From: Aliiroseovarius sediminilitoris
Lineage (GTDB): Bacteria > Pseudomonadota > Alphaproteobacteria > Rhodobacterales > Rhodobacteraceae
Assembly (NCBI RefSeq): GCF_900109955.1
Contig: NZ_FOJB01000002.1
Span: 1 to 64,000 of the forward strand
DNA length: 64,000 bases
Reading direction: 5' to 3'
Under the pieces are notes generated by a model. That model saw nothing but the letters and a program-made list of their open reading frames with translations, searched no databases and was not told the DNA's origin. A program made the translations under genes and the position numbers. This document shows, one piece after another, positions 30,246-47,477 of the stretch; position 1 is the stretch's first letter, and every line of letters begins with the position of its first letter.

Positions 30246-30734
30246 ATGTCCAAAATCCTGATCAAACGCCGCACCCTTATTGCCACCGGGATCGCCGCCG
30301 CTGTGACCGGGGGGGCCGGTCTTTTGGTGCCTGCGCGGGCGCAAGGCCTTGCGCCGACCCGATCGATGCGCGGCGGGTCCAACAACTATCTGCCCGGTGC
30401 GCCGATTGTGGACCGGATAGGCAATGGTGGTTTCTGGATGACCGGCACAGTTCGCCGCGCAGGCGATGGTGCCCCGCTGGCGGGTCAACGCATTCAGGTC
30501 TGGGCCCATACAACCGAAGGTCACGAACGCGACCCGCACAGTCACGGTGCCACACTGACCGATGCGACCGGAGCGTTCCGGCTTGAGATGCCGCAGATCG
30601 TGCCAGCCTTTGGGCAACCGCACGGCCATCTGGCCTATGACGACGACGCATTCGAGACGGTCTTCCTGCGGCCCGTCATGGCCAGTTCGAAAGACACCAG
30701 CCTCAGCGCGCATTTTGTCCTGCAACCGGCCTGA
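30246..30734 (+). CDS. Tat-secreted intradiol-dioxygenase-like protein lacking obvious Tyr ligands
   Basis: A 162-residue protein with a leader (IKRRTLIATGIAAAVTGGAGLL) and a short beta-sandwich domain resembling intradiol ring-cleavage dioxygenases, with GTVRRAGDGAPLAGQRIQVW, TDATGAFRLEMP and PHGHLAY (His126, His128). Real catechol dioxygenases bind Fe(III) with two Tyr and two His; here the GRYS tyrosine position is replaced by a His/Asp-rich segment (GHERDPHSHG). It is short compared with about 200-300 residues for the enzymes. The ATG follows GGAGG. It is followed closely by a ferric-reductase-like membrane protein, hinting at a secreted metal- or quinone-redox pair. Confidence 0.7.
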   Translation: MSKILIKRRTLIATGIAAAVTGGAGLLVPARAQGLAPTRSMRGGSNNYLPGAPIVDRIGNGGFWMTGTVRRAGDGAPLAGQRIQVWAHTTEGHERDPHSHGATLTDATGAFRLEMPQIVPAFGQPHGHLAYDDDAFETVFLRPVMASSKDTSLSAHFVLQPA

Positions 30735-30740
30735 CAAGGC

Positions 30741-31358
30741 GTGCTTCGGGGGATGAACGGTTTCAGGACCATCCTTTCCGTGCTGGTCGTTGCGGGCACG
30801 ATTGCGACACCGTTGCTACTCGCCGCGCAAAGCCCACTGCTCGCGTGGCGCGATCCGGTCTATATCGTGGCCGGGTTCGCTGGTATCATTGCGATGGCGT
30901 TTTTGCTGATCCAGCCATTGCTGGCGGCTGGGCTGTTTCCCGGCCTGCACCTGTTTGCCGGGCGTCGCGTGCATCGCGTGACCGGTGCAGGGCTGGTGCT
31001 TGCGGTGGTGATCCATGTCGGGGGCCTTTGGATCACAAGTCCGCCCGATGTCGTTGACGCACTTCTTTTCACGTCACCCACACCGTTTTCTGCTTGGGGT
31101 GTCATCGCGATGTGGGCGATGTTCGGTGCCGCCGGTCTGGCACTGGGGCGACGACATCTGAGGCTGCGGCTCTGGCGCCTTGGGCACACGTTACTGGTCG
31201 TTGTGGTCGTGGTCGGCAGCGTCATTCATGCGATGCTGATCGAAGGTGCCATGGAAACGATCTCGAAATCCGCGTTGTGCCTGCTGGTGCTGTTGGGGAC
31301 CGCGAAAGCGGTGTCGGACCTGCGAGCCTGGTCCGGTCGTGGCCCCACCGCACGCTGA
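30741..31358 (+). CDS. Ferric-reductase-like transmembrane protein
   Basis: About 205 residues with six predicted membrane helices. Paired histidines (HLFAGRRVHRVTG, VVIHVGGLW, LRLWRLGHTLL, SVIHAML) match the haem b-binding core of the ferric reductase/YedZ family. No FAD or NADPH domain is present, so it must take electrons from another partner. The GTG at 30741 and the ATG at 30753 are both possible starts; neither has a well-placed ribosome site. It is probably co-transcribed with the secreted dioxygenase-like protein just upstream. Confidence 0.75.
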   Translation: MLRGMNGFRTILSVLVVAGTIATPLLLAAQSPLLAWRDPVYIVAGFAGIIAMAFLLIQPLLAAGLFPGLHLFAGRRVHRVTGAGLVLAVVIHVGGLWITSPPDVVDALLFTSPTPFSAWGVIAMWAMFGAAGLALGRRHLRLRLWRLGHTLLVVVVVVGSVIHAMLIEGAMETISKSALCLLVLLGTAKAVSDLRAWSGRGPTAR

Positions 31359-31379
31359 TCGTGCCACGCGGCGGACATT

Positions 31380-32252
31380 TCAGCCGTCCAGCCGATAGAA
31401 CCGACGCGAGACGGTTTCAAAGACCTGTTCGTGATCCGTTTTGGGCACCAGAAGCGCATGCGCGCTGAATAGGGTTTCATAATCGGAATACAGGCTGTCG
31501 ACCGGGAAGTTAGAGCCGAACATGCAGCGATCCGGGCCGAATTGGTCAAGGCAGACCTCGATTATGGGCCGGAGATCTTCGGGTCTCCAGTCATGTTTGA
31601 ACATGCCGAGTCCGGACAGTTTGCAGGTGACATGGGGCAGGGCAGACAGGTGGCGCAATGCCTGCGCCCAATCGGCAAGCCCGGTCGCCGAACGATCATG
31701 CGGGCTGCCCGCGTGACACAGGGCAATCTGCGTGTCGGGAGCTGTTTCCAGCACGCGGGCGGTGTTTTCCATTAGTTCCGGGATCAGTTGCAGATCGAAG
31801 CTCAGCCCGCGCCGTCCCAATTCGCGCAGGCCGTCAGCGAACCGGGGATTGTCAAGCAGCGTGTTGGTGCCGGTCATGGCATCTTCGCCCGGCGCGCGAC
31901 CGACGATCTGGCGGGCGCCGCGCAGGGTCGAGAGGGTCTGGAACCGGTCAAGCTGATGCCCAAGGTCGGGCGCGGTCAGATCGCAAAAGACGACCTGCAC
32001 CATTGGCCAGTCGGGATTGGCATCTGCCACGGACTGCACCCATTGCGCCTCGGCCCAACCATCTTCGGCACCCACCTGTACGTGCACGGAGCCCGTCACG
32101 CCTTGCGCGGTGGCATCGCGGCGAAACTCCTCCAGCAGATAATTGCGCTGGATCGAGGCGGGATCGCCGAAAAAACGTGACGTTCCTTTGGCCATCAACC
32201 ACGGGTAATGCACCGCAGACAGATCCCAAAGATGGTGGTGGGCATCGATCAT
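31380..32252 (-). CDS. Amidohydrolase-2 family lactonase/hydrolase (TIM barrel)
   Basis: A 290-residue metal-dependent hydrolase of the COG3618 type, which includes L-fuconolactone, L-rhamnonolactone and 2-pyrone-4,6-dicarboxylate hydrolases. Metal and catalytic positions are visible: DAHHHLW at the N-terminus, HVQVG, LCHAGSPH and the final Asp in GSNFPVD. The start overlaps the stop of the SnoaL-like gene (ATGA), so the two are coupled. With the ABC importer divergent, a sugar-acid lactone substrate is a reasonable guess, but not shown. Confidence 0.82.
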   Translation of the reverse strand: MIDAHHHLWDLSAVHYPWLMAKGTSRFFGDPASIQRNYLLEEFRRDATAQGVTGSVHVQVGAEDGWAEAQWVQSVADANPDWPMVQVVFCDLTAPDLGHQLDRFQTLSTLRGARQIVGRAPGEDAMTGTNTLLDNPRFADGLRELGRRGLSFDLQLIPELMENTARVLETAPDTQIALCHAGSPHDRSATGLADWAQALRHLSALPHVTCKLSGLGMFKHDWRPEDLRPIIEVCLDQFGPDRCMFGSNFPVDSLYSDYETLFSAHALLVPKTDHEQVFETVSRRFYRLDG

Positions 32253-33250
32253 CACAGCTCTCCGTCAGCCAGTCGTTGCAGCACGTCATCACCTTGGTCT
32301 TTCCAGAAATGCAGAAGGTCAATGAATATCCAGTTTTCGGCCAGTTTGTCGCCATCGCGACGGTAAATGTCGATCACGCGGAACGCGCCGGTTTCGCCGG
32401 TGGGGGCATGCCCCATGAACTCGCCGGTCAGACGGGCAGTGAAATTGGGCCAGCCGAAGAAGCCTCCATAGTGACCTTCAGCCAACCGGGCGATATGGGT
32501 GGTTTTTGAGCGGTCAGAGAAGGCCGCGCGGAACGGCCCTGAATGCTGCCGCGCATATCGCGGGATCGTATAGGTCGCGCCGATGCCCGTCGGTCCCCAC
32601 CACAACATGTCATCGGCCCAGGTCTGGCGCAGCTCGTCTTCCAGGCTCAAACCGCTTTGCCATTGCCCCAAATCGCCGATCATGCGGTTGATCACCGCAA
32701 GCGTCGCCTCGCCCTCGTCGGCGGGCTGCGGCGCGAGAAGTAGCCCATCATGAGTTTGCGGACCCGGCTGCACCAGTTGCGCGGCGGTCTGGCCGGGGAA
32801 CGGGTCAAGACCGGCTTGCACCATCAGGTGGGGCAGGTCGAAATACATTGCGGTTTCGACGATCTTACCATCCGCGACCCGGTTGAATTCGCAATAGCGC
32901 AGCATGGCGATCTTGTGGGTCGGAGGGATGTTCAGAAACGGTTCGTCAAACAGCCCCATCAGATGCCCCATCGACACCACCCATATGCCGTTGAATCCAT
33001 CCATCTGATTGCGTCCGGCAAAGAAGACATCCTCGCGCCGTTGCAAGGACGTCAGGCTGCTGCGCAGGGGCACCCAGAACAGGCGGTCCACCTCTTGGAT
33101 TGATCCAAGTTCGCCAAACGGATGGAACCCACGCCAGAGGTAATCGGGGGCGGTGTGTGCCGCAAGCGCGTCTAGGGCGTTGATTCCCGGCGCGATCAGG
33201 TCCGCGTGATGGCGCCGGACGATGTCCTTGGCGGTTTGAAGGTCTTGCAT
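32252..33250 (-). CDS. Tandem SnoaL/NTF2-fold protein 1
   Basis: About 332 residues made of two NTF2-like cone domains. The second ends in the SnoaL pattern MGHAPTGETGAFRVIDIYRRDGDKLAENWIFIDLL. SnoaL-like domains bind small organic substrates and catalyse aldol, isomerase or dehydratase reactions, or only bind. Start at 33250 (MQDLQ) with AGAGAAG ahead. It is the first gene leftward from the operator region, divergent from the importer, and is coupled to the amidohydrolase. It shares the C-terminal pattern with the three SnoaL proteins of the plus-strand operon. Confidence 0.78.
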   Translation of the reverse strand: MQDLQTAKDIVRRHHADLIAPGINALDALAAHTAPDYLWRGFHPFGELGSIQEVDRLFWVPLRSSLTSLQRREDVFFAGRNQMDGFNGIWVVSMGHLMGLFDEPFLNIPPTHKIAMLRYCEFNRVADGKIVETAMYFDLPHLMVQAGLDPFPGQTAAQLVQPGPQTHDGLLLAPQPADEGEATLAVINRMIGDLGQWQSGLSLEDELRQTWADDMLWWGPTGIGATYTIPRYARQHSGPFRAAFSDRSKTTHIARLAEGHYGGFFGWPNFTARLTGEFMGHAPTGETGAFRVIDIYRRDGDKLAENWIFIDLLHFWKDQGDDVLQRLADGEL

Positions 33251-33282
33251 TTGCTTCTCTTTACAGTCAGTTGCGCCTGAAA

Positions 33283-33298
33283 TTGCATACGTTTGCAA
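33283..33298. promoter_or_regulatory. LacI-type operator O1
   Basis: TTGCATACGTTTGCAA is a near-perfect 16-bp palindrome centred on CG, the classic form of LacI/GalR-family operators. It is 32 bases from the leftward SnoaL-like gene start. Confidence 0.7.
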
Positions 33299-33337
33299 AT
33301 ATAGCTTGCCAAATTGTCGCAGCAAAGTCTAACATTA

Positions 33338-33353
33338 TTGCATTCGTATGCAA
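33338..33353. promoter_or_regulatory. LacI-type operator O2
   Basis: TTGCATTCGTATGCAA, the same palindrome core as O1 with centres 55 bases apart, lies 22 bases before the ABC ATPase start. The LacI-family gene at 41846 is the expected repressor of both divergent units. Confidence 0.7.
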
Positions 33354-33375
33354 AACCCAATGGGAGGGGGTCCGA

Positions 33376-34431
33376 ATGGCAGAGATCGAACTGCGCAACA
33401 TCAGCAAGCGTTGGGGCGCATTTGTCGGCGTCGATAATTTCGACCTGACCATCGCCGATAAGGAATTCCTGGTTTTGCTAGGGCCGTCCGGGTGCGGCAA
33501 GACCACCACGATGCGGATGATCGCCGGGCTGGAGGATGCCAGCGAAGGCGACATTATCGTTGACGGAGAGCGGGTGAATGACAAGGAACCCAAGGATCGC
33601 GACGTGGCCATGGTGTTCCAAAGCTATGCGCTTTACCCGAACATGAACGTCTATGAAAACATCCGCTTTCCGCTGAAGGTGCGCGGCAATGACCCCTCCA
33701 CCCACCATGAACGCGTGATGCAGGCCGCCGAACGGGTCGAGCTTCTGGACTTTCTGGATCGAAAACCGGCCGCCCTGTCGGGCGGTCAACGGCAGCGCGT
33801 GGCGCTGGCGCGGGCCATCGTCCGCAAGCCCAAAGTGTTCTTGATGGACGAACCCCTGTCCAATCTGGATGCCAAGCTGCGGGTCTCGACCCGCGCGCAG
33901 ATCAAGAACCTTAGCCACGATCTGGCGGCGACCACCATTTACGTGACCCATGACCAGATCGAGGCGATGACCTTGGCGGATCGGGTCGTCGTGATGAAAA
34001 AAGGTGTGGTGCAGCAGGTTGGCAGCCCGACCGAGATCTATGACACCCCGGCCAATACGTTTGTCGCCAGCTTTATCGGCTCACCTGCCATGAACCTGAT
34101 GGATGGAGAGGTAAAGGGCGGCACGTTCCGGGCACAAAACACCGAAATCCGCGGCCTGAACGCCCCCGACGGCCCCGTCACGCTTGGCTTTCGCGCCGAA
34201 GATGCCGCCTTGGCCGAGACCGGGCAGGGGCAGATCAACGCGCCGATCTATACGCTTGAGCTGCTGGGCGACGCGACGATGATTTCCGTGCGTATCAATG
34301 GCGCGCTGGTGTCGGTGAAATCCGACAAGACCTTCCGGGCAGAGATTGGGGACATGGTCTCGATCTCGGTCCCGAATGAGATTTGCCACAGTTTCGAAGC
34401 CACCGAAGATGGCAAACGTATCGAGGGCTAG
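33376..34431 (+). CDS. ABC transporter ATPase, MalK/UgpC type
   Basis: A 351-residue nucleotide-binding subunit of a carbohydrate-type importer. Walker A is GPSGCGKTT, the Q-loop MVFQSYALYP, the signature LSGGQRQRVALARA, Walker B VFLMDEPLSNLDA and the H-loop YVTHDQIEA; a C-terminal OB-fold regulatory domain follows. The ATG at 33376 has a GGGAGGGGG ribosome site; a longer in-frame start would cross the operator. First gene of the plus-strand catabolic operon. Confidence 0.93.
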   Translation: MAEIELRNISKRWGAFVGVDNFDLTIADKEFLVLLGPSGCGKTTTMRMIAGLEDASEGDIIVDGERVNDKEPKDRDVAMVFQSYALYPNMNVYENIRFPLKVRGNDPSTHHERVMQAAERVELLDFLDRKPAALSGGQRQRVALARAIVRKPKVFLMDEPLSNLDAKLRVSTRAQIKNLSHDLAATTIYVTHDQIEAMTLADRVVVMKKGVVQQVGSPTEIYDTPANTFVASFIGSPAMNLMDGEVKGGTFRAQNTEIRGLNAPDGPVTLGFRAEDAALAETGQGQINAPIYTLELLGDATMISVRINGALVSVKSDKTFRAEIGDMVSISVPNEICHSFEATEDGKRIEG

Positions 34432-34513
34432 CCCTCAGACACTTGCCGCGACAGCGGCACAACCATGGTCCGCGCGTCGACGGCGGACCTGACAAAACAG
34501 GGAGACATTTCTG

Positions 34514-35719
34514 ATGTTCAAGAAACTTGCATTGGCCGGCGTATTGTCGGTGATGGCAACCGGCGCATGGGCCGAGTGTGCCTATGAAAACACCACACCT
34601 TTGAAATCGCTGTCCGCCGGGTTCGAAGCCTGGAAGGCGGTCACGGATGCGATGGCGGAATGCGGAAATTTCCAAGCCTCGCTGGATCAGGATTTCCGCG
34701 AGAAGCAGCCCGAAGCCTTCGCGGCAAAACCTGCGCTGTATCAGATTGGCGGTGTTGCAAACTCGACCATGGTGCCGCTGTTGAATGCGGGCACAATTCG
34801 GCCGCTGGATGATCTGGTAGCAAAGTATGGCCAGCACCTGAAGCCCAACCAGCTGATCAAGGTGGACGGCAAGACCTATGCGATTGCGATGATGGTGAAC
34901 CTGCAACACCTGATGTATCGCGAGGACATTCTGAATGACCTCGGCATCGCGGTGCCCACGACCTATGCCGAGATGCTGGACGCGGCCGCGAAGATCAAAG
35001 AGGCGGGCGTTGTGGAGTATCCCATCGGTGCCACCTTCAAGACCGGCTGGAACCTGGGCGAAGAATTCATCAACAACTATCTGGGTGAAGGCGGCGAATT
35101 CTTTGCCGAGGGCAACATGCCCAACATCAACAATGAAAAAGGTGTGGCCGCGCTGGAAGTGATGAAAGCGCTGACCGAGTATATGGATCCGGAATATCTG
35201 GTCTCGGATTCGACTTATGTTCAGCAGCAATTCCAACAGGGCAAGATCGCCATGGCGAACCTGTGGGCCAGCCGTGCCGCCGCGATGAATGACGAAGCCG
35301 AAAGCCAGGTCGTTGGCAAGGTCGTGATGGCCGCCGCCCCGATGGGGTCCGAGCGTCCGGCCTCGTCGCTGTGGTGGGATGGCGTCGTCTTTGCCACCAA
35401 CATGACAGACGAAGAGGCCGAAGCTGCCTTTCAGGTGGCCATGGAGGGTATGGATACCGAAATGGTCAAGGCGAACAATGACGCTGCCGTCTGGCTGATC
35501 GACGGGTTTGATGCCGGGCCGCTGGCCAAAGGGGCCTATGAGACCGCGCAGAAAGGCACGGCACCCTATCCCGGATCCGGACCGATGGGCATCATGCACA
35601 CGGTGCTGGGTAACGGCATTTCGGATTACCTGAATGGTGCCAAGGATGCGACCACGACGCTGGCTGACATCGAAGCGGCCTATATCACCGCCGCCAAGGA
35701 ATCGGGCTTGGTGCAGTAA
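34514..35719 (+). CDS. ABC transporter substrate-binding protein
   Basis: A 401-residue periplasmic protein with a Sec signal (cleavage after GAWA). The mature part is of the family-1 (MalE/UgpB-like) sugar-binding type, with GKTYAIAMMVNLQHLMYREDIL and the late-lobe PAS-S-L-WWDG segment. A Cys pair (ECAYEN, MAECGN) near the start could form a disulfide. Ligand unknown; the sequence alone does not separate sugars, sugar acids and sulfonated polyols. Ribosome site GGGAGAC. Confidence 0.9.
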   Translation: MFKKLALAGVLSVMATGAWAECAYENTTPLKSLSAGFEAWKAVTDAMAECGNFQASLDQDFREKQPEAFAAKPALYQIGGVANSTMVPLLNAGTIRPLDDLVAKYGQHLKPNQLIKVDGKTYAIAMMVNLQHLMYREDILNDLGIAVPTTYAEMLDAAAKIKEAGVVEYPIGATFKTGWNLGEEFINNYLGEGGEFFAEGNMPNINNEKGVAALEVMKALTEYMDPEYLVSDSTYVQQQFQQGKIAMANLWASRAAAMNDEAESQVVGKVVMAAAPMGSERPASSLWWDGVVFATNMTDEEAEAAFQVAMEGMDTEMVKANNDAAVWLIDGFDAGPLAKGAYETAQKGTAPYPGSGPMGIMHTVLGNGISDYLNGAKDATTTLADIEAAYITAAKESGLVQ

Positions 35720-35731
35720 TTCCTTCTGAAC

Positions 35732-35755
35732 GGGGGAGGGTTTCAGCTCTCCCCC
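35732..35755 (+). terminator. Intra-operon stem-loop after the binding-protein gene
   Basis: GGGGGAG (35732-35738) pairs with CTCCCCC (35749-35755) around a 10-base loop, followed by CTCTTTCC. A hairpin between binding-protein and permease genes usually protects the upstream mRNA and partly terminates transcription, raising binding-protein levels. Confidence 0.65.
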
Positions 35756-35798
35756 CTCTTTCCACCAGTAACTTCAGGACCATGAGAAAGGCAGAGCC

Positions 35799-36821
35799 AT
35801 GAATTTCAAGACTTTCGCAGCCTTCGTCGGGCCATCTGTCTTTATGATGCTCCTGTTTATCGCGTTCCCGCTGGCAAGTGTGCTGAAGCAGAGCTTCTAT
35901 GTCACTCAGCCGGTCTATGAAACGGTGGAGGTCGAGACATGCTCGCCGGGGTTTCCCGACCAGATTTGCGTGACCGAGCAAAAATCCGTTCCGCAACTGG
36001 ATAAAGATGGCAACATCGTCGAGATCACGACCTTCGTCGGCCTGCAAAGCTATCGCAATGTGTTGGAGTTGGAGCGGGCATGGAATGCCATCAAAACTGA
36101 TGGACTGATGGCCCTTCAGTCGATTGATTTCTGGAAGGCGCTGCGGTTCACCCTGACATTCACCCTGATCACCTTGCCGATTGTCGTGGCGTCCGGGCTT
36201 GGCATCGCGCTGATGATCAACAATGCCTCACTTGCCATCAAGGGGCCGGTGATCTTCATCTCGCTCTTGCCGTTCATCATCACGCCGGTCATCGGTGCGC
36301 TCAGCATCAACTGGCTGTTTCGCGGCGACGGTATTCTGACCGCCCTTATCGAATGGTATTTGCAGCGCGACGTGTCGATGTTTGCGCAGGCCTGGACCAT
36401 CGAGATTCTGATCATGCTGTATCGTGTGTGGCACGTGGCCCCGTTTGCGGCGATCGTGTTCTATGCGGGGCTTCAGACGGTCAACAGTGACGCGCTGGAA
36501 AGCGCCGTGATCGACGGGGCAAGCAGATGGCAGCGAATGAAATATGTGGTGATCCCGCATCTGACCCCGCTGATCATCTTCATTTCGATGATCCACCTGA
36601 TGGACGCCTATCGCGTCTTCGAAGAAATCGTCGGCTTCTCAAGCCAGGGCTATGTCATCAGCTTGCAATGGCTGACCTATGACTTCCTGGTGCCGGATCA
36701 GGCGGGCAACCGGTCGATCAGCCGGGCTTCGGCCTCGGCGATGCTGACCATGATCGGGATTGCCGTTCTCCTGGTTCCGCTTCTGCGCCGCACCTGGCAA
36801 GACCATAAAGGAGGTCACTAA
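35799..36821 (+). CDS. ABC transporter permease, MalF-like
   Basis: A 340-residue inner-membrane permease with six core helices and the EAA coupling loop (ESAVIDGASRWQRMKYVVIPHL). The first periplasmic loop is long (about residues 40-95) and carries a Cys pair (ETCSPGFPDQICVTE) that may form a disulfide and contact the binding protein. Works with the permease two bases downstream. Confidence 0.9.
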   Translation: MNFKTFAAFVGPSVFMMLLFIAFPLASVLKQSFYVTQPVYETVEVETCSPGFPDQICVTEQKSVPQLDKDGNIVEITTFVGLQSYRNVLELERAWNAIKTDGLMALQSIDFWKALRFTLTFTLITLPIVVASGLGIALMINNASLAIKGPVIFISLLPFIITPVIGALSINWLFRGDGILTALIEWYLQRDVSMFAQAWTIEILIMLYRVWHVAPFAAIVFYAGLQTVNSDALESAVIDGASRWQRMKYVVIPHLTPLIIFISMIHLMDAYRVFEEIVGFSSQGYVISLQWLTYDFLVPDQAGNRSISRASASAMLTMIGIAVLLVPLLRRTWQDHKGGH

Positions 36822-36822
36822 G

Positions 36823-37977: not shown

Positions 37978-38050
37978 TGAGCAGCCGGGCAAGACATAAC
38001 GCGCGGTGCGGCCATCCGGCCCTGAACAGAATGCCGCGGGATTTCCTGCT

Positions 38051-38066
38051 GGGGCGTCCACGCCCC
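38051..38066. repeat. Short hairpin GGGGCG-TCCA-CGCCCC
   Basis: A perfect 6-bp stem in the 124-base gap between the permease and the second SnoaL-like gene. Possible weak attenuator between transport and enzyme genes. Confidence 0.4.
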
Positions 38067-38101
38067 GCACGATCCCAACGTATTTTGACAGGAGAGACAG
38101 A

Positions 38102-38629: not shown

Positions 38630-38642
38630 GCGAGGAAAAGCA

Positions 38643-39974: not shown

Positions 39975-40032
39975 TACTAACAACGTGCGGGGATCGCGAA
40001 ACGACACCCCGCCAACACATGAGACAACGAAA

Positions 40033-41082
40033 ATGGATGTTCAAAGCAAGAACAAGGCTCTGATCGCACCTGTGCGGGCGGCGATGTATGATTTTGACGC
40101 GGGCAAACTGCGCAAGGCGCTGGCAGACGCCTGTGCACCGGATGCGGTGTTTCACCTGTGTTTCCCGTTTGGCGACAGCATCGGGGCCGGCGCCTTTTGT
40201 GACACTGCCTATCGCGACCTGCTGGACGCCTGGCCGGATCTGGAGCGGCGTGATTATATCGTCATGGCCGGACCGGACGAAGACGGCGCGGAATGGGTCG
40301 GCTGTGGTGGCTATTACACCGGCACGTTCGAGGCCCCGTGGCTGGACATCCCCCCCACCGGTCATCAGGTCCATATGAGGTTTCACGAGTTCTTCCGCAT
40401 CGAAGACGGCAAGATCGTCGAATTTCAGGGCCTGTGGGACATTCCCGAGGTGATGATGCAGGCCCATGCCTGGCCGCTGGCCCCGTCGCTTGGGCGCGAA
40501 TGGCATGTGCCGGGTCCGGCCACCTGTGATGGTATCCTGACCGGCCCCTATGACATGAACAAGGGCACCGCGTCCCGTCAGCATATCATCGACATGCTGG
40601 AACATATGAAGCGCCACCCCAGCCAGGGCGGCCCCGAAGTGATGGAGATGGACAGGTTCTGGCACGAGAAGATGAGCTGGTATGGCCCATCGGGCATCGG
40701 CACCGGTCGCGGTATCCGGGGGTTCCGCAACTGGCATCAAATCCCGTTTCTGTCGGGGATGCCGGATCGCGGCAAATATGTGGACCAGATCGACTATCAC
40801 TTCTTTGGCGATGGCGATTATGCTGCCGTGACCGGGTGGCCTGACATGATCCAGACCGTCACCCATGGCGGCTGGCTGGGCATCGCGCCGTCGGGCAAGA
40901 AGATCACCATGCGCAGCCTTGATTTCTGGCGCATTGAAAACGGCAAGATCCGGGAAAACTGGGTGTTGGTCGACCTGCTGGATGCATATGACCAGTTGGG
41001 TGTGGACGTGTTTGCACGTCTGCGGGAGTTCAACAAGGTGCGCCATATGGGGCGCCTTAATATCCCTGATGGAATGAGCTGA
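40033..41082 (+). CDS. Tandem SnoaL/NTF2-fold protein 3
   Basis: A 349-residue protein with two NTF2-like domains. Both show the family pattern: IPPTGHQVHMRFHEFFRIEDGKIVEFQGLWD in the first and IAPSGKKITMRSLDFWRIENGKIRENWVLVDLL in the second. The middle contains a Trp/His-rich surface (RFWHEKMSWYGPSGIG) also seen in SnoaL protein 1 (MLWWGPTGIG). The stop overlaps the SDR start (TGATG). Tandem domains may form one active cavity each. Confidence 0.8.
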   Translation: MDVQSKNKALIAPVRAAMYDFDAGKLRKALADACAPDAVFHLCFPFGDSIGAGAFCDTAYRDLLDAWPDLERRDYIVMAGPDEDGAEWVGCGGYYTGTFEAPWLDIPPTGHQVHMRFHEFFRIEDGKIVEFQGLWDIPEVMMQAHAWPLAPSLGREWHVPGPATCDGILTGPYDMNKGTASRQHIIDMLEHMKRHPSQGGPEVMEMDRFWHEKMSWYGPSGIGTGRGIRGFRNWHQIPFLSGMPDRGKYVDQIDYHFFGDGDYAAVTGWPDMIQTVTHGGWLGIAPSGKKITMRSLDFWRIENGKIRENWVLVDLLDAYDQLGVDVFARLREFNKVRHMGRLNIPDGMS

Positions 41083-41849
41083 TGGATAAACTGCCCAAAA
41101 CCCCCTCGTTTCGACTTGATGGTCGTCGCGCGCTTGTGGCCGGGGCCAGTTCCGGGATCGGCCTGGCGTGCGCGGCTGCTTTGGGCGAAGCCGGGGCCGA
41201 AGTGGTTCTGGCCGCCCGGCGCGCCGATGCGTTGAAGGCGCTGGTCGGCGAAATGACGGCTGCGGGTATGTCTGCCCGTGCGCTGCCGTTGGACGTGTCC
41301 GATATTGCGGGCACGCAGGCGGCGATTGCGGGAAACGGACCCTTTGATGTGCTCGTGAACTCCGCCGGACTGGCGCGCCACAGTCCCGCGACCGAGACCA
41401 CCGAAGCGGATTTCGACGCGGTGTCCGACTTGAACATCAAGGGCGCTTATTTCCTGACCCAAGCGGTGGCGAAGGGGCTGATTGCAGCCGGAAAGCCCGG
41501 CAGCCTGATCAACATATCCTCGCAAATGGCGCATGTGGGCGGGGTGGACCGGGCGGTCTATTGCGCGACCAAACACGCGGTCGAGGGCTTCACCAAGTCG
41601 ATGGCGATCGAATGGGGCAGGGCGGGCATCCGCGTCAACACGATCTGCCCGACTTTCATCCTGACAGACTTGACCCGATCCACCTTTGAGCAGCCGGACA
41701 AACGCGCCTGGATCGAAGACAAGATCAAGCTGGGTCGCGTGGGTGAGGTCGAGGATATCATGGGCGCGGTGCAATTCCTGGCCTCGGACGCGTCCAGCCT
41801 TGTCACCGGCACGGCCTTGATGATCGACGGGGGATGGACCGCAGAATGA
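41082..41849 (+). CDS. Short-chain dehydrogenase/reductase
   Basis: A 255-residue classical SDR with the nucleotide motif GASSGIG, NSAG (NSAGLARH), the catalytic Ser in NISSQMA and YCATKHA (Tyr-x3-Lys). The Rossmann Arg-Arg after the second strand (AARRAD) suggests NADP preference, though this is a weak inference. Coupled to the genes on both sides (TGATG and ATGA overlaps). Probably oxidises a secondary hydroxyl of the imported substrate or an intermediate. Confidence 0.9.
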   Translation: MDKLPKTPSFRLDGRRALVAGASSGIGLACAAALGEAGAEVVLAARRADALKALVGEMTAAGMSARALPLDVSDIAGTQAAIAGNGPFDVLVNSAGLARHSPATETTEADFDAVSDLNIKGAYFLTQAVAKGLIAAGKPGSLINISSQMAHVGGVDRAVYCATKHAVEGFTKSMAIEWGRAGIRVNTICPTFILTDLTRSTFEQPDKRAWIEDKIKLGRVGEVEDIMGAVQFLASDASSLVTGTALMIDGGWTAE

Positions 41850-42862
41850 GCAAAGTGACCTCAGCCCAAGTTGCACAGCGCGCGGGCGTCAGCCAATCTG
41901 CCGTCAGCCGGGTGTTTACCCCCGGCGCCTCCGCGTCGAAGCGCACGGTTGAGAAGGTCAGGAAAGCTGCGGATGAACTGGGCTATCGCCCCAATTCGCT
42001 GGCGCGCGCGATGGTGTCGGGCAAAAGCCGGATAATCGGCCTGGTCGTGGCCTATCTGGAAAACCACTTCTATCCCGAAGCCTTGGAAAAACTGTCCAAT
42101 GCGTTGCAGGAACAGGGCTATCACATCCTGATTTTCATGGCTTCCAGCACGTCCGGTGACATCAGCGACGTGGTCGAGGAAATTCTGGATTATCAGGTCG
42201 ATGGGATCATCACCGCCTCGGTCGCCATGTCGTCGGATCTGACCGACCGCTGCCGCAAGGCCGGGGTGCCGATTGTCCTGTTCAACCGGTCGCAGGACGG
42301 GCCGGACCTGTCCTCGGTCGCGTCGAACAATGTCGCGGGCGGGCGCAAGATAGCCGAGTTCCTGATCGCGGCGGGGCACCGGAAAATCGGCTACATCGCG
42401 GGGTGGGAAGGGGCGTCGACCCAGCGTGACCGCGAGGCTGGGTTCCGGACCGGACTGGCTGCGGCCGGTGTTTCGCTTCACAGCCGCGCCGTGGGGGATT
42501 TCCGTTCTGACCGCGCTGCCGAGGCCGCACGGCAGATGTTCTCGGGCGATGATCGGCCCGACGCGGTGTTTGTCTGCAACGATCACATGGCCTTCGCGGT
42601 GATGGATGTATTGCGGTCAGATCTTGGCCTGTCGGTGCCCGGTGACGTGTCGGTCGTTGGCTACGACGATGTGCCGATTGCCGGCTGGCCCGCCTATGAC
42701 CTGACCACCGTGCGCCAACCCGCCAACCGTATGGTGGCCGAAACCGTCGGCCTGCTTCTGGCGGAAATCGACGGCACCGGGAAAGGCCCGCAAAAGATTG
42801 AAATTGACGGCCCGCTAGTCGTGCGCGGCTCGGCCCGCAAACCGGAAGGATGGAGCGAATGA
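41846..42862 (+). CDS. LacI/GalR-family transcriptional repressor
   Basis: A 338-residue regulator with an N-terminal HTH (VTSAQVAQRAGVSQSAVSRVF), the YRPNSLARAM hinge helix and a periplasmic-binding-protein-like effector domain (HRKIGYIAGWEG, PDAVFVCNDHMAF, VSVVGYDDVPIAGWPAYDLTTVRQP). It is inside the operon and overlaps neighbours on both sides, so it is autoregulated. The two palindromes at 33283 and 33338 are the predicted operators; the effector is probably the pathway substrate or an intermediate. Confidence 0.92.
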   Translation: MSKVTSAQVAQRAGVSQSAVSRVFTPGASASKRTVEKVRKAADELGYRPNSLARAMVSGKSRIIGLVVAYLENHFYPEALEKLSNALQEQGYHILIFMASSTSGDISDVVEEILDYQVDGIITASVAMSSDLTDRCRKAGVPIVLFNRSQDGPDLSSVASNNVAGGRKIAEFLIAAGHRKIGYIAGWEGASTQRDREAGFRTGLAAAGVSLHSRAVGDFRSDRAAEAARQMFSGDDRPDAVFVCNDHMAFAVMDVLRSDLGLSVPGDVSVVGYDDVPIAGWPAYDLTTVRQPANRMVAETVGLLLAEIDGTGKGPQKIEIDGPLVVRGSARKPEGWSE

Positions 42863-43833
42863 AGGGTTTTGACAGCAAGTTCAAGGATTTCCCCGACTAT
42901 ATCATCGGGATCACCAAGGAAATCTGGGAAGATCGCGGCATCGCCACGCTGCATGACTACTATGCACCCGATATCGTTGTGCGCTCGCCTGCCTCGGTCG
43001 TGGTGGGCAATCAGGATGTCATCGGCGCGACCATGGCCACGCTGGCAGAGTTTCCCGACCGCACCCTGCTGGGCGAAGATGTAATCTGGTCGGGCACCCC
43101 GGAAGAGGGGATGTTGTCCTCGCACCGGTTGTTTTCGACCGCGACGCATCTGGGCGATGGGGTTTATGGCAAGGCGACTGGGAACAAGCTGGCCTATCGC
43201 ATCATCGCGGACTGCCACGCGATCAACAACCAGATCAATGATGAATGGCTGATCCGCGACCAGGGCGCGATTGTGCGCCAGATGGGGTGGGAACCGAAGG
43301 ATTATGCAAGTGACCTGATCGCGCGTGAGGGCGGGCCAGAGCGTTGCGTGAAACCCTTCACCCCCGCCAATGACAAGCCCGGCCCCTATAAGGGCAACGG
43401 TAATGACAATGAATGGGGCCAGAAATACGCCGACATCCTGACGCGCATCATGAATGCCGACATGACCGCGATCGAATCCGAGTATGACCGCGCGGTGCAA
43501 TCGGAATATCCGGGCGGTGCCACAGGTCACAGCTGGGGGCCGGTGGATCGGTTCTGGATGGGGCTGCGTGCATCCTTCCCGAATGCCACCTTCACCATCC
43601 ACCACCAGATCGGGCGCGATGATCCGTTGATGCCGCCGCGCGCCGCGCTGCGTTGGACGTTGCACGGCAAGCATGACGGCTGGGGCGTTTTCGGCGTGCC
43701 GACCGGGGCCGAGGTCTATGTGCTGGGCGCAAGCCATGCCGAGTTCGGGCCGTGGGGTTTGCGGCGGGAATTCACTCTGTTCGATGAAACCGCGATCTGG
43801 AAACAGATCCTGTTGCAAACCGGAGAGGTGTAA
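42859..43833 (+). CDS. Tandem SnoaL/NTF2-fold protein 4
   Basis: A 324-residue protein with two NTF2-like domains: the first around WEDRGIATLHDYYAPDIVVRSPAS, the second around HSWGPVDRFWMGLRASFPNATFTIHHQIGRDDP. It is more divergent than the other three and lacks the PTGK-x-W-RIEDGKI signature at its end, having instead VYVLGASHAEFGPWGLRREFTLFDE. Starts inside the LacI gene stop (ATGA). Confidence 0.75.
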   Translation: MKGFDSKFKDFPDYIIGITKEIWEDRGIATLHDYYAPDIVVRSPASVVVGNQDVIGATMATLAEFPDRTLLGEDVIWSGTPEEGMLSSHRLFSTATHLGDGVYGKATGNKLAYRIIADCHAINNQINDEWLIRDQGAIVRQMGWEPKDYASDLIAREGGPERCVKPFTPANDKPGPYKGNGNDNEWGQKYADILTRIMNADMTAIESEYDRAVQSEYPGGATGHSWGPVDRFWMGLRASFPNATFTIHHQIGRDDPLMPPRAALRWTLHGKHDGWGVFGVPTGAEVYVLGASHAEFGPWGLRREFTLFDETAIWKQILLQTGEV

Positions 43834-43950
43834 GTGTCAACCGACGCTCTTCATCTGGACGCGGGTCAGGCCGCACGCAGGTTTCATAACTTCTGCGCGT
43901 CCCGGCGCGCGCGGCGGTTGAATGACCACCCGCCCGGTGTCCGGGTTTGA
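43834..43950 (+). CDS. Doubtful 38-codon frame between SnoaL 4 and bicupin
   Basis: A GTG directly after the SnoaL stop opens a 38-residue Arg/His-rich frame. No similarity or hydrophobic segment is seen. It may be a leader or chance frame in the 150-base gap. Confidence 0.15.
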   Translation: MSTDALHLDAGQAARRFHNFCASRRARRLNDHPPGVRV

Positions 43951-43984
43951 TCCACACAAACCCAACCCGATAGGAGACAGACCA

Positions 43985-44947
43985 ATGAGCAACATCCAAG
44001 ACCGCATCGTTCGCTATGGCGAGCTGCAACCCTGCAAAACCGCCTTCATCGACGCCCACACGCCGGGCTCGGACCAGAAGGAAAACTTCACCATCATCGG
44101 CGGCGGCGTCAGTGAAAGCCCAGATCAGCACGTTCACATCACCGATCAGATCGGCTTCAACATCGGCGCGGCGGGGCAACCGCCGAAATGCCGCAACTCG
44201 CTGCATTCCCATACCACCGCCGAGGTGTTCTTTGTCCTCAAGGGACGTTGGCGGTTCTTCTGGGGCCGCTATGGCACAGCGGGCGAATTCGTGGCCGAAG
44301 AAGGCGATATTTTCAACATCCCCACCGGCATTTTTCGCGGATTTGAAAACATCGGCACCGACTATGGCATGATCATGGCTGTGTTGGGCGGCGACGACGC
44401 GGGCGGCGGCGTGACCTGGGCCCCGCAGGTGATCGAAGACGCCAAGGACCATGGGCTTGTGTTGGGGGATAACGGTGCGCTTTACGACTCCAAGAAGGGT
44501 CAAAGCCTGCCGGATGGTGTGAAACCCATGCCACTTCTGACCGAAGAAGAGCTGAAGGCCTTCCCCGAAGTGCCGGTCGAAAATGTCGTGCGCGACTATG
44601 TCGCCCGGTATTGGGACTTGATGGCGCTGGCGGGCAAGAAACCCGCGAAAGTCATCGGCGAGGATGGGCTTTTGCGCGACAAACCGGGGTTCGAGGTTGA
44701 GTTCCTGACCCGCGTCTCGATCCCCGACGAAATGCACAGCCACGACAAACCCACGGTTCTGATGCCCATGCGTGGTCATTGGAAACTGCGGTATGAGGGC
44801 GGGGAAACCGTGCTGAACCCCGGCGACACCTGTCTGATCAATCCGGGCGAGTCCCATGCGCTTGCGCCGTCCATGACAGGCGAGGCGAGCCTTTATCGTG
44901 TCCGCACGACTGATGATCCGGCGGGCCTGACCTGGTCTGGCAAATAA
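43985..44947 (+). CDS. Bicupin protein (gentisate-dioxygenase-like fold)
   Basis: A 320-residue protein with two cupin domains. The first has NSLHSHTTAEVFFVLKGRWRFFWG and GDIFNIPTGIFRGFEN, the second MHSHDKPTVLMPMRGHWKLRY and LNPGDTCLINPGESHAL. Both retain the HxH-type metal positions. Bicupins include gentisate and related dioxygenases, oxalate decarboxylases and isomerases, so the reaction is not fixed by fold. A good GGAGACAGACC ribosome site is present. It precedes the MetE-like gene. Confidence 0.8.
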   Translation: MSNIQDRIVRYGELQPCKTAFIDAHTPGSDQKENFTIIGGGVSESPDQHVHITDQIGFNIGAAGQPPKCRNSLHSHTTAEVFFVLKGRWRFFWGRYGTAGEFVAEEGDIFNIPTGIFRGFENIGTDYGMIMAVLGGDDAGGGVTWAPQVIEDAKDHGLVLGDNGALYDSKKGQSLPDGVKPMPLLTEEELKAFPEVPVENVVRDYVARYWDLMALAGKKPAKVIGEDGLLRDKPGFEVEFLTRVSIPDEMHSHDKPTVLMPMRGHWKLRYEGGETVLNPGDTCLINPGESHALAPSMTGEASLYRVRTTDDPAGLTWSGK

Positions 44948-44967
44948 GAAACTGTGAGGAGCCCATT

Positions 44968-46092
44968 ATGACACGTATCAAAACAACCCATGTGGGCTCC
45001 TTGCCGCGCAGTCAGAAGGTGGTGGATTTCATCTTCGCCCGTGAGAACGGCACCGCCTATGACCCCGACGCGTTCGATGCCTGCATGACGCAGGCCGTGT
45101 CCGACACCGTGCGCAAACAGGTGGCGGCGGGGATTGACATCGTATCGGACGGTGAGACGTCGAAGATCTCTTACGCCACCTATGTCAAGGACCGCTATAC
45201 CGGGTTTGACGGCGACAGCCCGCGCAATGCGCCGGCCGACCTGAAAATGTTTCCGGGCTTCCTGAAACGGCTGGCCGATGATGGCGGCACCCCACAATAT
45301 GCACGCCCCATGTGCGTGGGTGAGGTGAAATCAAAAGGTCAGGGCGAGCTTGAAAAGGACATCGCGAACCTGAAAGCCGCGATGGACGAACATGGGGCAG
45401 AGCGCGGCTTCATGAACGCCGCCAGCCCCGGTGTGATCTCGCTGTTCCTTCAGAATGACTACTACACATCGCGCGAGGCTTATCTGGCCGCGCTGGCCGA
45501 CGCGATGAAGGCGGAATACGAGACCATCGTGGCCTCGGGGCTGGACCTGCAACTGGATTGCCCCGACCTTGCCCTGTCGCGCCACATGCTGTTCACCGAC
45601 TTGACGGATGACGAGTTCATCAAGGTCGCGAACCTGCATGTCGAGGCGTTGAACCACGCGCTGTTGGACGTCCCTGCCGACAAGGTGCGGGTGCATATCT
45701 GCTGGGGCAATTACGAGGGGCCGCATTGCTGCGACATTCCGATGGCCAAGATGTTCGACACGCTGATGGCAACGAAATCGCGCTATGTGCTGTTTGAAAC
45801 CTCGAACCCGCGCCACGGGCATGAATGGACCACGTTCCGCGACCGCAATGGCGACATCCCAGATGACAAGATTCTGGTGCCCGGCGTCGTCGACACCACC
45901 ACCAATTTCGTCGAGCATCCTGAACTTGTCGCCCAACGCATCCAGCGGTTCACCGACATTGTCGGCGCGGATCGGGTGATCGCGGGTTCGGACTGTGGTT
46001 TCGGCACGTTTGCGGGCTTTGGCGCTGTCGACCCTGACATCGCCTATGCCAAGCTTTCGGCCTTGGCCGAGGGGGCCGCGCTGATCAAATGA
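44968..46092 (+). CDS. MetE C-terminal-domain-like zinc protein (UROD/MetE superfamily)
   Basis: A 374-residue TIM-barrel protein like the catalytic half of cobalamin-independent methionine synthase. Zinc ligands are recognisable: VHICWGN (His, Cys), LFETSNPRHGHE (Glu) and AGSDCGFG (Cys). The N-terminal folate half of MetE is absent, so it is probably not a methionine synthase. Relatives of this size include epoxyalkane:coenzyme M transferase and other thiolate-activating enzymes. Here it is in a catabolic operon and could make or break a C-S or similar bond. Overlaps the next gene by four bases. Confidence 0.8.
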   Translation: MTRIKTTHVGSLPRSQKVVDFIFARENGTAYDPDAFDACMTQAVSDTVRKQVAAGIDIVSDGETSKISYATYVKDRYTGFDGDSPRNAPADLKMFPGFLKRLADDGGTPQYARPMCVGEVKSKGQGELEKDIANLKAAMDEHGAERGFMNAASPGVISLFLQNDYYTSREAYLAALADAMKAEYETIVASGLDLQLDCPDLALSRHMLFTDLTDDEFIKVANLHVEALNHALLDVPADKVRVHICWGNYEGPHCCDIPMAKMFDTLMATKSRYVLFETSNPRHGHEWTTFRDRNGDIPDDKILVPGVVDTTTNFVEHPELVAQRIQRFTDIVGADRVIAGSDCGFGTFAGFGAVDPDIAYAKLSALAEGAALIK

Positions 46093-46781
46093 CGCCCCTT
46101 GTGCTGCTTCCCGGAATGATGTGCGATGCGCGGCTGTTTGCGCCGCAATTCGCCGCTTTTTCGGGTCAGCGGATGGTGGTTAGCGCCCCCATCACCGAAC
46201 ATGACCGCGTTGAACGACTGGCCGAGGCTGTGCTGTCGGATGCCCCGCCGCGCTTTGCCCTGGCCGGTCTGTCCATGGGCGGCATCGTCGCGATGGAAGT
46301 ATTGCGCCAGGCCCGCGATCGGGTCGAGCGGATCGCCCTTCTGGACACCAACCCGTTGGCTGAAACCGATGCCGTCAAAGCCCGTCGTTTTCCGCAAATG
46401 CAAAAGGTGCGCGAGGGCCAACTGGCGCATGTCATGCGTGACGAGATGAAGCCAAATTACCTGAGCGACGGCCCGCGCCGGCAGGAAATCCTCGATCTGT
46501 GCATGGAGATGGCGCTGGACCTTGGTCCGCATGTGTTTTTGACCCAGTCGCGGGCTTTGATGGGCCGGCCCGATCAGGCTGAAACCTTGCGGGCGACGCA
46601 GCTTCCGGCGCTGGTCCTGTGCGGGCGGGATGACACTTTGTGTCCTGTGGCGCGGCACGAATTGATGGCGGACCTGATCCCTGATGCTCACCTTGAAATC
46701 ATCGACGGCGCGGGGCATCTGCCGACGCTGGAGCAACCCGAAAAAACCAACGTGGCGCTGGCGCGCTGGCTGGAGGACTGA
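46089..46781 (+). CDS. Alpha/beta-hydrolase
   Basis: A 230-residue hydrolase with the oxyanion loop LLPGMMCD, nucleophile elbow GLSMGG, acid in CGRDDTLCP and His in DGAGHLPTLEQP. Catalytic triad complete. Probably cleaves an ester, lactone or C-C bond late in the pathway. Translationally coupled to the MetE-like gene and abutting the aldolase-like gene. Confidence 0.85.
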   Translation: MTPLVLLPGMMCDARLFAPQFAAFSGQRMVVSAPITEHDRVERLAEAVLSDAPPRFALAGLSMGGIVAMEVLRQARDRVERIALLDTNPLAETDAVKARRFPQMQKVREGQLAHVMRDEMKPNYLSDGPRRQEILDLCMEMALDLGPHVFLTQSRALMGRPDQAETLRATQLPALVLCGRDDTLCPVARHELMADLIPDAHLEIIDGAGHLPTLEQPEKTNVALARWLED

Positions 46782-47477
46782 ATGGACAACACTCTTTTGA
46801 CCATGCTGCAACGGGTCGATACACCCACCGTTTGCAACGCCATCGAGGTGGCGCAGGGCAAACGTGGCTTTGACGCGTTTACCCGTGGCACGATGCTGGC
46901 CTCGCACCCTGATGCCCCGGCCATTGTGGGCTATGCCCGCACCGCTCGGATCGCCGCCGTCGCGCCGCCGACCGAGGCGCCCGAAGTCATCAAGGCACGG
47001 CGCATGGACTATTACCGCCATATGTCACAAGGTTCGCGCCCCGCGCTGGCGGTGATTGAAGACGTGGATTTCCCCCGGTGCATCGGCGCCTATTGGGGCG
47101 AGATCAACACGACGGTGCATAAGGGTTTCGGCCTGTCCGGTGCGCTGACCAACGGGGTTATGCGTGACCTTGGCGATCTGCCGGACGGGTTTCCGGTGAT
47201 TGCAGGCTCCATCGGTCCCAGCCATGGGTTCGTCCATGTAAAGGATATTGCGCAACCGGTGACGGTCTTCGGGTTGACCATCGCGGATGGCGATCTGGTC
47301 CATGCCGACCGCCACGGTGCGCTCGTCATTCCGCCCGACGTATTGCCTGATTTGGAAGCCGCAATCCGGCGCCTGTTGGACACCGAGAAACTTGTGCTGG
47401 ACCCAGCACGTCAGGAAGGGTTCGACTTTGACGCCTTCGAAGCCGCGTGGTCAGCCTTTGAGGCGGCGCGGACATAG
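46782..47477 (+). CDS. RraA/HMG-aldolase-family protein
   Basis: A 231-residue member of the RraA fold that includes 4-hydroxy-4-methyl-2-oxoglutarate aldolase and oxaloacetate decarboxylase. The class II active-site segment is GALTNGVMRDLGDL (Arg-Asp) after WGEINTTVHKGF, with GD-LVHADRHGAL-VIP at the end. Likely performs the final retro-aldol or decarboxylation giving pyruvate-like products. Last gene of the operon; a strong bidirectional terminator follows. Confidence 0.85.
   Translation: MDNTLLTMLQRVDTPTVCNAIEVAQGKRGFDAFTRGTMLASHPDAPAIVGYARTARIAAVAPPTEAPEVIKARRMDYYRHMSQGSRPALAVIEDVDFPRCIGAYWGEINTTVHKGFGLSGALTNGVMRDLGDLPDGFPVIAGSIGPSHGFVHVKDIAQPVTVFGLTIADGDLVHADRHGALVIPPDVLPDLEAAIRRLLDTEKLVLDPARQEGFDFDAFEAAWSAFEAART

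Follow-up and report, generated by a model that had tools for sequence, protein, structure and literature searches.

HpsN, a dehydrogenase of the HisD superfamily that acts on 2,3-dihydroxypropane-1-sulfonate (DHPS), contains a G-R-Y-A/S-H motif, in which His126 of the Cupriavidus pinatubonensis enzyme (CpHpsN) binds the sulfonate and is conserved in HpsN homologues (PMC11382572, in the part of that paper available). The core methionine synthases MesA-D contain the C-terminal MetE domain only. SnoaL, IdmH, AclR and the tandem NTF2 epoxide hydrolases Lsd19 and MonB share the NTF2 fold. Relatives of all three groups are encoded together in Aliiroseovarius sediminilitoris, within bases 1-64000 of contig NZ_FOJB01000002.1 (contig C2, 202,011 bases; genome 3.41 Mb in 6 contigs). 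This 64,000-base stretch is termed the window. The cluster proper spans 31380-47477 and comprises about sixteen genes. Genome comparison shows that its importer and enzymes have mostly been passed on together in several bacterial lineages, and the cluster very probably imports and dismantles a nutrient. The cluster is real, widespread and modular, and is undescribed as far as searches of the open-access literature go. No description of the gene combination was recognised among the titles and beginnings of abstracts listed by these searches (subscription papers and preprints lie outside this scope), in line with the sequence-only reading, which knew of no such pathway.

Extent and gene content of the cluster

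Relatives of the cluster were collected with a single genome-collection scan. The best 80 of 585 confirmed loci, ranked by the similarity of the two-domain SnoaL protein SnB, were retained; the ranking favours close relatives, and full flanks were present in 63 of the 80. The sequence-only reading had placed the locus at 30246-47477, which starts too early. Its first two genes, at 30246-30734 (no Pfam match) and 30753-31358 (Ferric_reduct, just under the cut-off), gave tblastn matches in none of the 63 full-flank relatives, and the start was therefore set at 31380. Families were assigned from gene calls together with Pfam and NCBIfam scans. The families named in that reading were borne out, including RraA, for which PF03737 matches at 46782-47477. 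Its statement that most genes overlap was too strong: among the 14 same-strand junctions, 5 overlap by 1-4 bases, 1 abuts and 8 are gapped by 1-151 bases. The features of the cluster are as follows.

31380-32252 (-): AH, Amidohydro_2 family, L-fuconolactonase-like hydrolase, optional member (PF04909, 1.1e-32)
32252-33250 (-): SnD, two-domain SnoaL protein (PF07366, two stretches)
33283-33298 (no strand): LacI operator 1, TTGCATACGTTTGCAA (motif search)
33338-33353 (no strand): LacI operator 2, TTGCATTCGTATGCAA (motif search)
33376-34431 (+): ATPase of the ATP-binding cassette (ABC) importer, MalK/UgpC type (PF00005, OB_MalK)
34514-35719 (+): solute-binding protein (SBP) of the importer, CUT1 type (PF01547)
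35799-36821 (+): ABC permease A, PermA (PF00528)
36823-37977 (+): ABC permease B, PermB (PF00528)
38102-38629 (+): SnA, single-domain SnoaL protein, Val at the position of SnoaL Asp121 (PF07366, alignment to 1sjw)
38643-39974 (+): HDH, NAD dehydrogenase of the HisD/HpsN superfamily, GKFPM motif (PF00815, TIGR00069)
40033-41082 (+): SnB, two-domain SnoaL protein (Pfam, structure model)
41082-41849 (+): short-chain dehydrogenase/reductase (SDR), KduD/gluconate 5-dehydrogenase-like (Pfam/NCBIfam; the 25 models shown all under cut-off)
41846-42862 (+): LacI-family regulator (PF00356, PF13377)
42859-43833 (+): SnC, two-domain SnoaL protein (PF07366 and PF12680, one per half)
43985-44947 (+): bicupin (Pfam, cupin motif)
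44968-46092 (+): MetE-like (core-MetE) zinc enzyme (PF01717)
46089-46781 (+): alpha/beta hydrolase, abH (Abhydrolase_6, PF12697)
46782-47477 (+): RraA-like protein, class II pyruvate aldolase type, E-X20-R-D (PF03737)

The importer (33376-37977) has the CUT1 carbohydrate ABC set of an SBP_bac_1 protein, two permeases and a MalK-like ATPase. The weak relatives of its SBP in the PDB include sugar-, sulfoquinovosyl glycerol- and sorbitol-binding proteins.

Conservation, regulation and modularity

Presence in the 63 full-flank loci was called with tblastn using family thresholds. SnB was found in 63 loci, SnC, SBP and PermA in 60 each, PermB in 59 and the ATPase in 58. The LacI regulator was detected in 57 loci, SnA and the bicupin in 56 each, the SDR in 54, HDH in 53 and the MetE-like enzyme in 52. 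The lower counts are those for abH and RraA (44 each), SnD (36) and AH (22). Gene order is conserved in the relatives, and the SnoaL proteins travel with the importer across loci. In addition, 60 stretches around SnB-type matches in relatives were fetched, as were ten stretches from plasmid records, eight of which are usefully annotated around the cluster; of the other two, one carries no annotation and one only remnants of the cluster. The loci from these relatives overlap with the best-80 set (for example L039/L105 and L049/L134), and locus counts are thus not all independent.

The gene set recurs in roseobacters, Roseibium, Halomonas and a metagenome-assembled genome (MAG) labelled SAR324. 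The Halomonas loci L145 and L154 encode HDH (67-69% identity), SDR, an SnC-type protein (40%), SnB (69%), the bicupin (37-39%), abH, RraA and SnD. In the SAR324-labelled MAG (L164) the identities are 63% for HDH, 55% for MetE, 36% for the bicupin, 38% for RraA and 37% for AH. A haloarchaeal plasmid of Halobellus limi (L036) carries an ABC importer, four tandem SnB-like proteins, a fifth SnoaL protein and a MetE-like protein at 40%. The genome-neighbourhood analysis proposed with the sequence-only reading was extended to 292 genomes asked for at order level; those listed belong to the family of the window. Presence was called at E up to 1e-10 for SnB and up to 1e-60 for the MetE-like protein; for HDH a best E of about 1e-220 was applied by eye to 205 genomes listed at 1e-100. 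SnB is present in 132 genomes, the MetE-like protein in 122 and the cluster-type HDH in 143. With relatedness uncorrected, SnB and the MetE-like protein occur together in 120 genomes, SnB only in 12, the MetE-like protein only in 2 and neither in 158; SnB and HDH occur together in 127, SnB only in 5 and HDH only in 16. The joint occurrence of SnB and the MetE-like protein exceeds chance, again uncorrected for relatedness, and it extends to genomes in which the two genes lie far apart or on different contigs (G253, G132, G276, G057 and G058). The MetE-like matches listed are at least 72% identical, except for one at 51%.

The 125-base gap between the SnD and ATPase genes contains two near-palindromes, TTGCATACGTTTGCAA and TTGCATTCGTATGCAA, located 55 bases apart. 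At up to one mismatch the operator motif gives 3 matches in the window vs 0.46 expected, a number reached in 1 of 100 shuffles. The two LacI operators (33283-33298 and 33338-33353) are exact sites of the motif and are regarded as real, and the divergent units around LacI operators described from the sequence were recovered. Variants of TGCAnACGnnTGCA are the commonest near-palindromes upstream of the ATPase gene (123 loci). The tighter pattern TTGCANWCGWNTGCAA is present in 86 and absent in 105 of the 191 fetched loci; many of these loci are short, and several duplicate others. Genome-wide, the looser pattern TTGCANNCGNNTGCAA matches exactly at four places, two of which are the cluster operators. 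The remaining two, at C2 136842 and 141224, read TTGCAACCGGTTGCAA and probably serve another LacI protein; because of this attribution, the LacI regulon is probably the single divergent promoter. An operator-like palindrome with one mismatch, TTGCAACTGATTGCAA, is found outside the cluster at 29896-29911. With the importer and enzymes conserved as a set and the operators shared, the earlier proposal of one co-regulated multistep catabolic unit is upheld, and we regard a single inducible unit under LacI control as very likely.

The cluster can be divided. Loci L143 and L156 (and L158, on a short contig) contain little beyond importer, SnB and SnC, and L173, near a contig end, contains importer and SnB. 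Since the genomes of L143, L156, L158 and L173 encode HDH elsewhere (90, 88, 80 and 78% identity), these reduced loci look like extra entry units into the same pathway. Of the 16 genomes with HDH and no SnB, 14 (all but G097 and G187) were covered, in 15 loci. A SnoaL gene persists in three of these loci (L198, L200 and L201), and L206 has MetE-like and LacI genes. Among the 12 SnoaL-free loci, HDH adjoins the SDR in 9 (L193-L196, L199 and L202-L205). The HDH-SDR pair is accompanied by a TAXI-type tripartite ATP-independent periplasmic (TRAP) importer and an HpcH/HpaI aldolase in L193 and L205, where the aldolases and one importer component each were checked by separate scans; by TAXI importer genes (identified by homology), RraA and an AH relative in L195; by TRAP-like genes (by eye), a 3-hydroxyacyl-CoA dehydrogenase-type enzyme and a beta-keto acid cleavage enzyme in L199; and by 2-keto-3-deoxy-6-phosphogalactonate (KDPGal) aldolase and xylulokinase in L202, with L204 similar by eye. 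L192 contains a phosphoenolpyruvate (PEP)-mutase/methylisocitrate-lyase-type enzyme and no SDR. We read HDH-SDR as a reusable lower module that would oxidise a diol end ahead of a C-C-cleaving enzyme, a slot that RraA would occupy here. The division of the pathway into upper and lower parts is, on balance, probable.

Several further observations concern these loci. The beta-keto acid cleavage enzyme of L199 (12373-13305) scores 537.8 against a cut-off of 430 with the 3,5-dioxohexanoate:acetyl-CoA acetone transferase model. L154 (Halomonas urmiana) has HDH (68 and 69%), SDR and SnC-type genes in two copies each, a mixed cluster that appears as if roseobacter-type and Halomonas-type versions had merged. 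On L036 a phosphonate importer lies just past the SnoaL, MetE-like and ABC genes (10608-17001). Optional neighbours that recur are an enolase-superfamily protein (11 loci; L172:18494-19723), a GMC oxidoreductase (11 loci; L081:11744-13255) and a PNPOx-like protein (8 loci, e.g. L136:13827-14438).

Residue conservation in the enzymes

HDH scores 422.4 bits with the TIGR00069 hisD model, above the cut-off of 243.8, and falls under the cut-off of model NF010343. Its best solved relatives are DHPS dehydrogenases (8v35 from C. pinatubonensis, E 2.7e-116, and 8wwe, E 4e-111); the best HisD gives 6.9e-74. The entry 8wwe, '(R)-DHPS dehydrogenase', is taken by us to be the R. pomeroyi enzyme of PMC11131964. 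The motif reads GRYAH in 8v35 and GRYSH in 8wwe; the corresponding residues of the window HDH are GKFPM. Each row counted, for all enzymes, is a distinct open frame covering 70% or more of the query. For HDH a minimum identity of 60% was set as well, and the window protein enters twice (141 rows, 140 distinct). The position of HpsN His126 is Met in 138 of 141 rows and Leu in 3. The equivalents of the catalytic Glu318 and His319, of Gln248, His251 and Asp352 in the zinc site, and of Lys353 are invariant in all 141. Because the sulfonate-binding histidine is replaced, HDH is by this test not a DHPS dehydrogenase. The sulfonate substrate suggested earlier from the HpsN-type enzyme is weakened accordingly, and it was dropped as the leading explanation. 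Since the tested catalytic and zinc residues are invariant, HDH should work like HpsN, in a four-electron oxidation of a primary alcohol beside a metal-binding hydroxyl. HDH and HpsN are thus alike in superfamily, in the six tested residues and in having an SDR partner, and differ in the motif and in their other genomic partners.

A second HisD-family gene in the genome (C1:1030463) is 39% identical, reads GLASYPS where HDH has GKFPM and is taken to be the histidine-synthesis enzyme. A second HDH paralogue (46-49% identity) accompanies the cluster type in 4 of the 8 genomes searched. At the cluster end of L073 (17945-19264) and L201 (13769-15058) a GRYPL-type HisD-family gene of about 45% identity is found, which suggests another substrate class in the superfamily.

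The NTF2 fold of the SnoaL proteins is supported by Pfam and by the AlphaFold model of SnB, which has two NTF2-type domains (mean pLDDT 90.4) and whose best structural matches include IdmH, AclR and SnoaL. The residue that we take to be catalytic in SnoaL, and to be numbered Asp121, is Val in 101 of 101 SnA rows, where an Asp three residues further is kept. In the C-domain of SnB the position, assigned by motif, is Val in 162 of 167 rows and another residue or a gap in 5. Classical SnoaL cyclisation was rejected for SnA and the SnB C-domain on account of this replacement. The window proteins share the fold of SnoaL, IdmH, AclR, Lsd19 and MonB, and differ from them in the two-domain form, the catabolic operon and the ENWV..D motif of the SnB C-domain.

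The first cupin of the bicupin has the pattern HxH-x3-E-x6-G, and the position presumed to hold the third His of the cupin motif is Arg in 120 of 120 rows. Assignment as a named dioxygenase was tried and rejected. Three PDB sequence matches are at chance level (best E 0.13) and the Foldseek matches (quercetinase, oxalate decarboxylase and other bicupins) have root-mean-square deviations of 8-13; no named function is given to the bicupin for these reasons. The RraA-like protein shares PF03737 with 4-hydroxy-4-methyl-2-oxoglutarate/4-carboxy-4-hydroxy-2-oxoadipate (HMG/CHA) aldolase and other RraA-like class II pyruvate aldolases. We take D-X20-R-D to be their canonical motif. The R and D are kept, whereas Glu replaces the first Asp (E-X20-R-D) in 84 of 84 window-type rows. 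AH shares PF04909 with L-fuconolactonase-type amidohydrolases, its best PDB match being 4dlf, yet it scores 121 bits vs a cut-off of 400 with the FuconLaconase equivalog model.

All 108 rows of the MetE-like enzyme retain the His-Cys-Glu-Cys zinc site, with Asp in place of Glu in a single row, as expected from the zinc-thiol chemistry proposed earlier. Ser11, Glu63 and Asp197 are invariant in 8 of 8 sequences; we equate them, by sequence motifs rather than structural alignment, with Ser433, Glu484 and Asp599 of MetE. The latter are listed as homocysteine residues in section 11 of PMC7857596. The protein looks like a homocysteine-type methyltransferase. It resembles MesA-D in consisting of the C-terminal MetE domain only, in the zinc ligands and in the apparent homocysteine residues; unlike MesA-D, it has a catabolic context, and no MesX-type (DUF1852) gene is found among the cluster genes. 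A class I S-adenosylmethionine (SAM) methyltransferase was found in 25 of 150 sources (24 distinct sequences); in every case its neighbour is the MetE-like gene, and no source has the methyltransferase alone. This arrangement and the homocysteine-type site jointly suggest methyl transfer in the pathway.

A knock-out in a related gene has been described. PGA1_c27430 of Phaeobacter inhibens ('Mes-like', a putative core methionine synthase) was knocked out, and the shortening of the lag phase induced by dimethylsulfoniopropionate (DMSP) persisted; the same work reports that a bmt mutant grows residually when methionine is left out, and names a putative second methionine synthase as a possible cause (PMC12366255, available part). 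The gene-specific parts of the knock-out and check primers were mapped onto the window. Matches were obtained in the bicupin gene at 44041 (20/21 bases), at the start of abH at 46090 (17/22) and in the RraA gene at 47080 (19/21) and 47198 (17/21), with the next-best places in the region at 13-14. One further primer matches weakly (15/20 at 43935) and one has no match in the region (14/22). The distances agree with the flanks of about 1000 bp given in the available part of PMC12366255. From these matches and their spacing, PGA1_c27430 is very probably the orthologue of the window MetE-like gene, in the same order bicupin-MetE-abH-RraA; P. inhibens DSM 17395 would then very probably carry at least this end of the cluster, and a strain lacking the MetE-like gene exists. 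The published primer pattern gave 0 matches in 394 family genomes, and no open-access paper other than PMC12366255 was found for the locus tag.

Other neighbours were noted around these genes. On a P. inhibens DOK1-1 plasmid (L234) the SnB match lies among transposases, together with an ABC ATPase and a second ester cyclase. In Marinovum algicola (L101:22551-28431) the cluster is followed by SBP56 and then by genes annotated as DMSP demethylase (DmdA) and DMSP breakdown; SBP56 also lies near the related Phaeobacter piscinae locus L038. Further neighbours, likewise anecdotal and without a control, are found in Vibrio pelagius L035 (sarcosine oxidase and purU) and in Halobellus L036 (an aminomethyltransferase-family gene).

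Proposed pathway and alternative explanations

In the proposed scheme a polyhydroxylated compound bearing a methyl group would enter through the CUT1 importer. Its first conversions (isomerisation, dehydration or ring opening) would fall to the two-domain SnoaL proteins, assisted by SnA and the bicupin; the two-domain proteins are placed at the entry because the smallest unit that recurs consists of the importer, SnB and SnC. The MetE-like enzyme would pass the methyl group to homocysteine or a similar thiol, and the hydrolases would open ester or lactone intermediates. On a vicinal-diol fragment the SDR would then oxidise C-OH to C=O and HDH would oxidise CH2OH to COOH with two NAD, and the RraA-type enzyme would cleave or decarboxylate the product to a pyruvate-type metabolite. 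The HDH-SDR lower module would be common to SnoaL-free operons having their own importers. Of the sequence-only reading, the catabolic unit, the thiol chemistry of the MetE-like enzyme and RraA are retained; the sulfonate derived from the HpsN-type enzyme is not. A methylated substrate is put forward tentatively, at somewhat less than even chances, and the scheme built on it as a whole is held no more firmly. The narrower proposal of an overlooked, common marine pathway for a methylated algal ring or polyol metabolite, with a SnoaL first step, salvage of the methyl group as methionine by core-MetE and an HDH-SDR-aldolase finish, is a long shot. O-methyl cyclitols and the mycosporine/gadusol-type sunscreen core (methoxy, hydroxymethyl) are example substrates guessed from the chemistry.

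A number of results weigh against this scheme. The co-occurrence statistics ignore relatedness, and similarity to SnB set the ranking of the best-80 loci. The homocysteine residues would equally be retained in an ordinary methionine synthase. The mes-like knock-out keeps its DMSP-induced lag shortening, and the available part of PMC12366255 mentions no defect. The case for a methyl group on the substrate is drawn from one enzyme family and the methyltransferase; 12 of the 132 SnB genomes and the near-complete clusters L033, L045, L046 and L053 are without a MetE-like gene. L177 has SnoaL proteins, bicupin and MetE-like enzyme without HDH or SDR, and its genome encodes only a 47% HDH relative. 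In some clusters a distant importer type (SBP about 40% vs 56-79% identity) lies beside enzymes that have hardly changed, so that the substrate may differ between clusters.

Organosulfonate catabolism would explain the same genes with an importer for a sulfonated polyol or sulfosugar, HDH as an HpsN-type DHPS 3-dehydrogenase and an SDR of the HpsO kind. The ranking of DHPS dehydrogenases ahead of HisD, the retention of Lys353 and the other tested catalytic and zinc residues, and the resemblance of the SDR-HDH pair to HpsO-HpsN (PMC11131964, available part) agree with it. It is nevertheless improbable, given the loss of the histidine that binds the sulfonate (PMC11382572, available part), the second HDH paralogue in half of the genomes searched and the lack of an annotated sulfolyase or other C-S-cleaving gene in the eight annotated plasmid stretches, for which no genome-wide search was made. 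About equally improbable is the reading of the MetE-like protein as a core methionine synthase of the housekeeping kind, located by chance in a sugar operon with which it has nothing to do. The zinc and apparent homocysteine residues would fit such an enzyme, and Mes-like is treated as a putative second methionine synthase in the available part of PMC12366255. The MetE-like gene lies within the operon, however, and 120 of the 122 genomes that have it also have SnB; the bmt mutant, presumably keeping PGA1_c27430, grew only residually without methionine (PMC12366255, available part), and a like point is made in the available part of PMC12478193.

Two or more unrelated sugar-utilisation units that are adjacent by chance, with an importer for an ordinary sugar, would account for the separation of HDH-SDR from ABC-SnoaL and for the varying importer types. 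The joint occurrence of SnB and the MetE-like gene also holds at unlinked positions, and the operator motif is shared and gene order similar across lineages, which leaves chance adjacency quite unlikely. Least probable by a clear distance is a biosynthetic cluster for a polyketide-like or other secondary metabolite. The SnoaL family and the SAM methyltransferase of 25 loci would suit such a cluster, as would the hydrolase, of a kind known from anthracycline tailoring. Against this, the presence of an importer, of LacI operators and of aldolase-type enzymes speaks for catabolism, the Asp121 position of SnoaL is occupied differently in SnA and the SnB C-domain, and no polyketide synthase is annotated in the eight annotated plasmid stretches (it was not otherwise searched for).

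If the methylated-substrate scheme holds, the GKFPM-type HisD-family enzyme would gain a catabolic role, as would the two-domain SnoaL proteins that are annotated 'ester cyclase', and the puzzling roseobacter core-MetE would belong to a pathway instead of standing by as a second source of methionine. From the presence of SnB with the MetE-like protein in 120 of 292 relatives and in other, largely marine lineages, the compound is probably common in their habitat.

Replicon and neighbouring genes

A RepC gene above the curated cut-off lies at C2:184727-185242, on the same contig as the cluster, which is therefore placed, probably, on a repABC-type plasmid or chromid. SnB relatives are encoded on 23 plasmid records. 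A Pfam scan of ten other window proteins gave no obvious pathway member. To the left of the cluster, 22462-29545 is probably a copper-resistance region (multicopper oxidase, HMA copper-chaperone-like protein, P-type ATPase and MerR regulator). At 58450-63459 (-) two Oxidored_FMN/FAD enzymes flank a proline racemase family protein; this looks like a locus that handles N-methylated (hydroxy)proline betaines. The cluster is flanked by KatG and LysR genes in the window (47526-50741) and likewise in a Maritalea MAG (at the start of L161), the only one of the 63 full-flank loci with KatG; KatG/LysR and the cluster were possibly transferred together.

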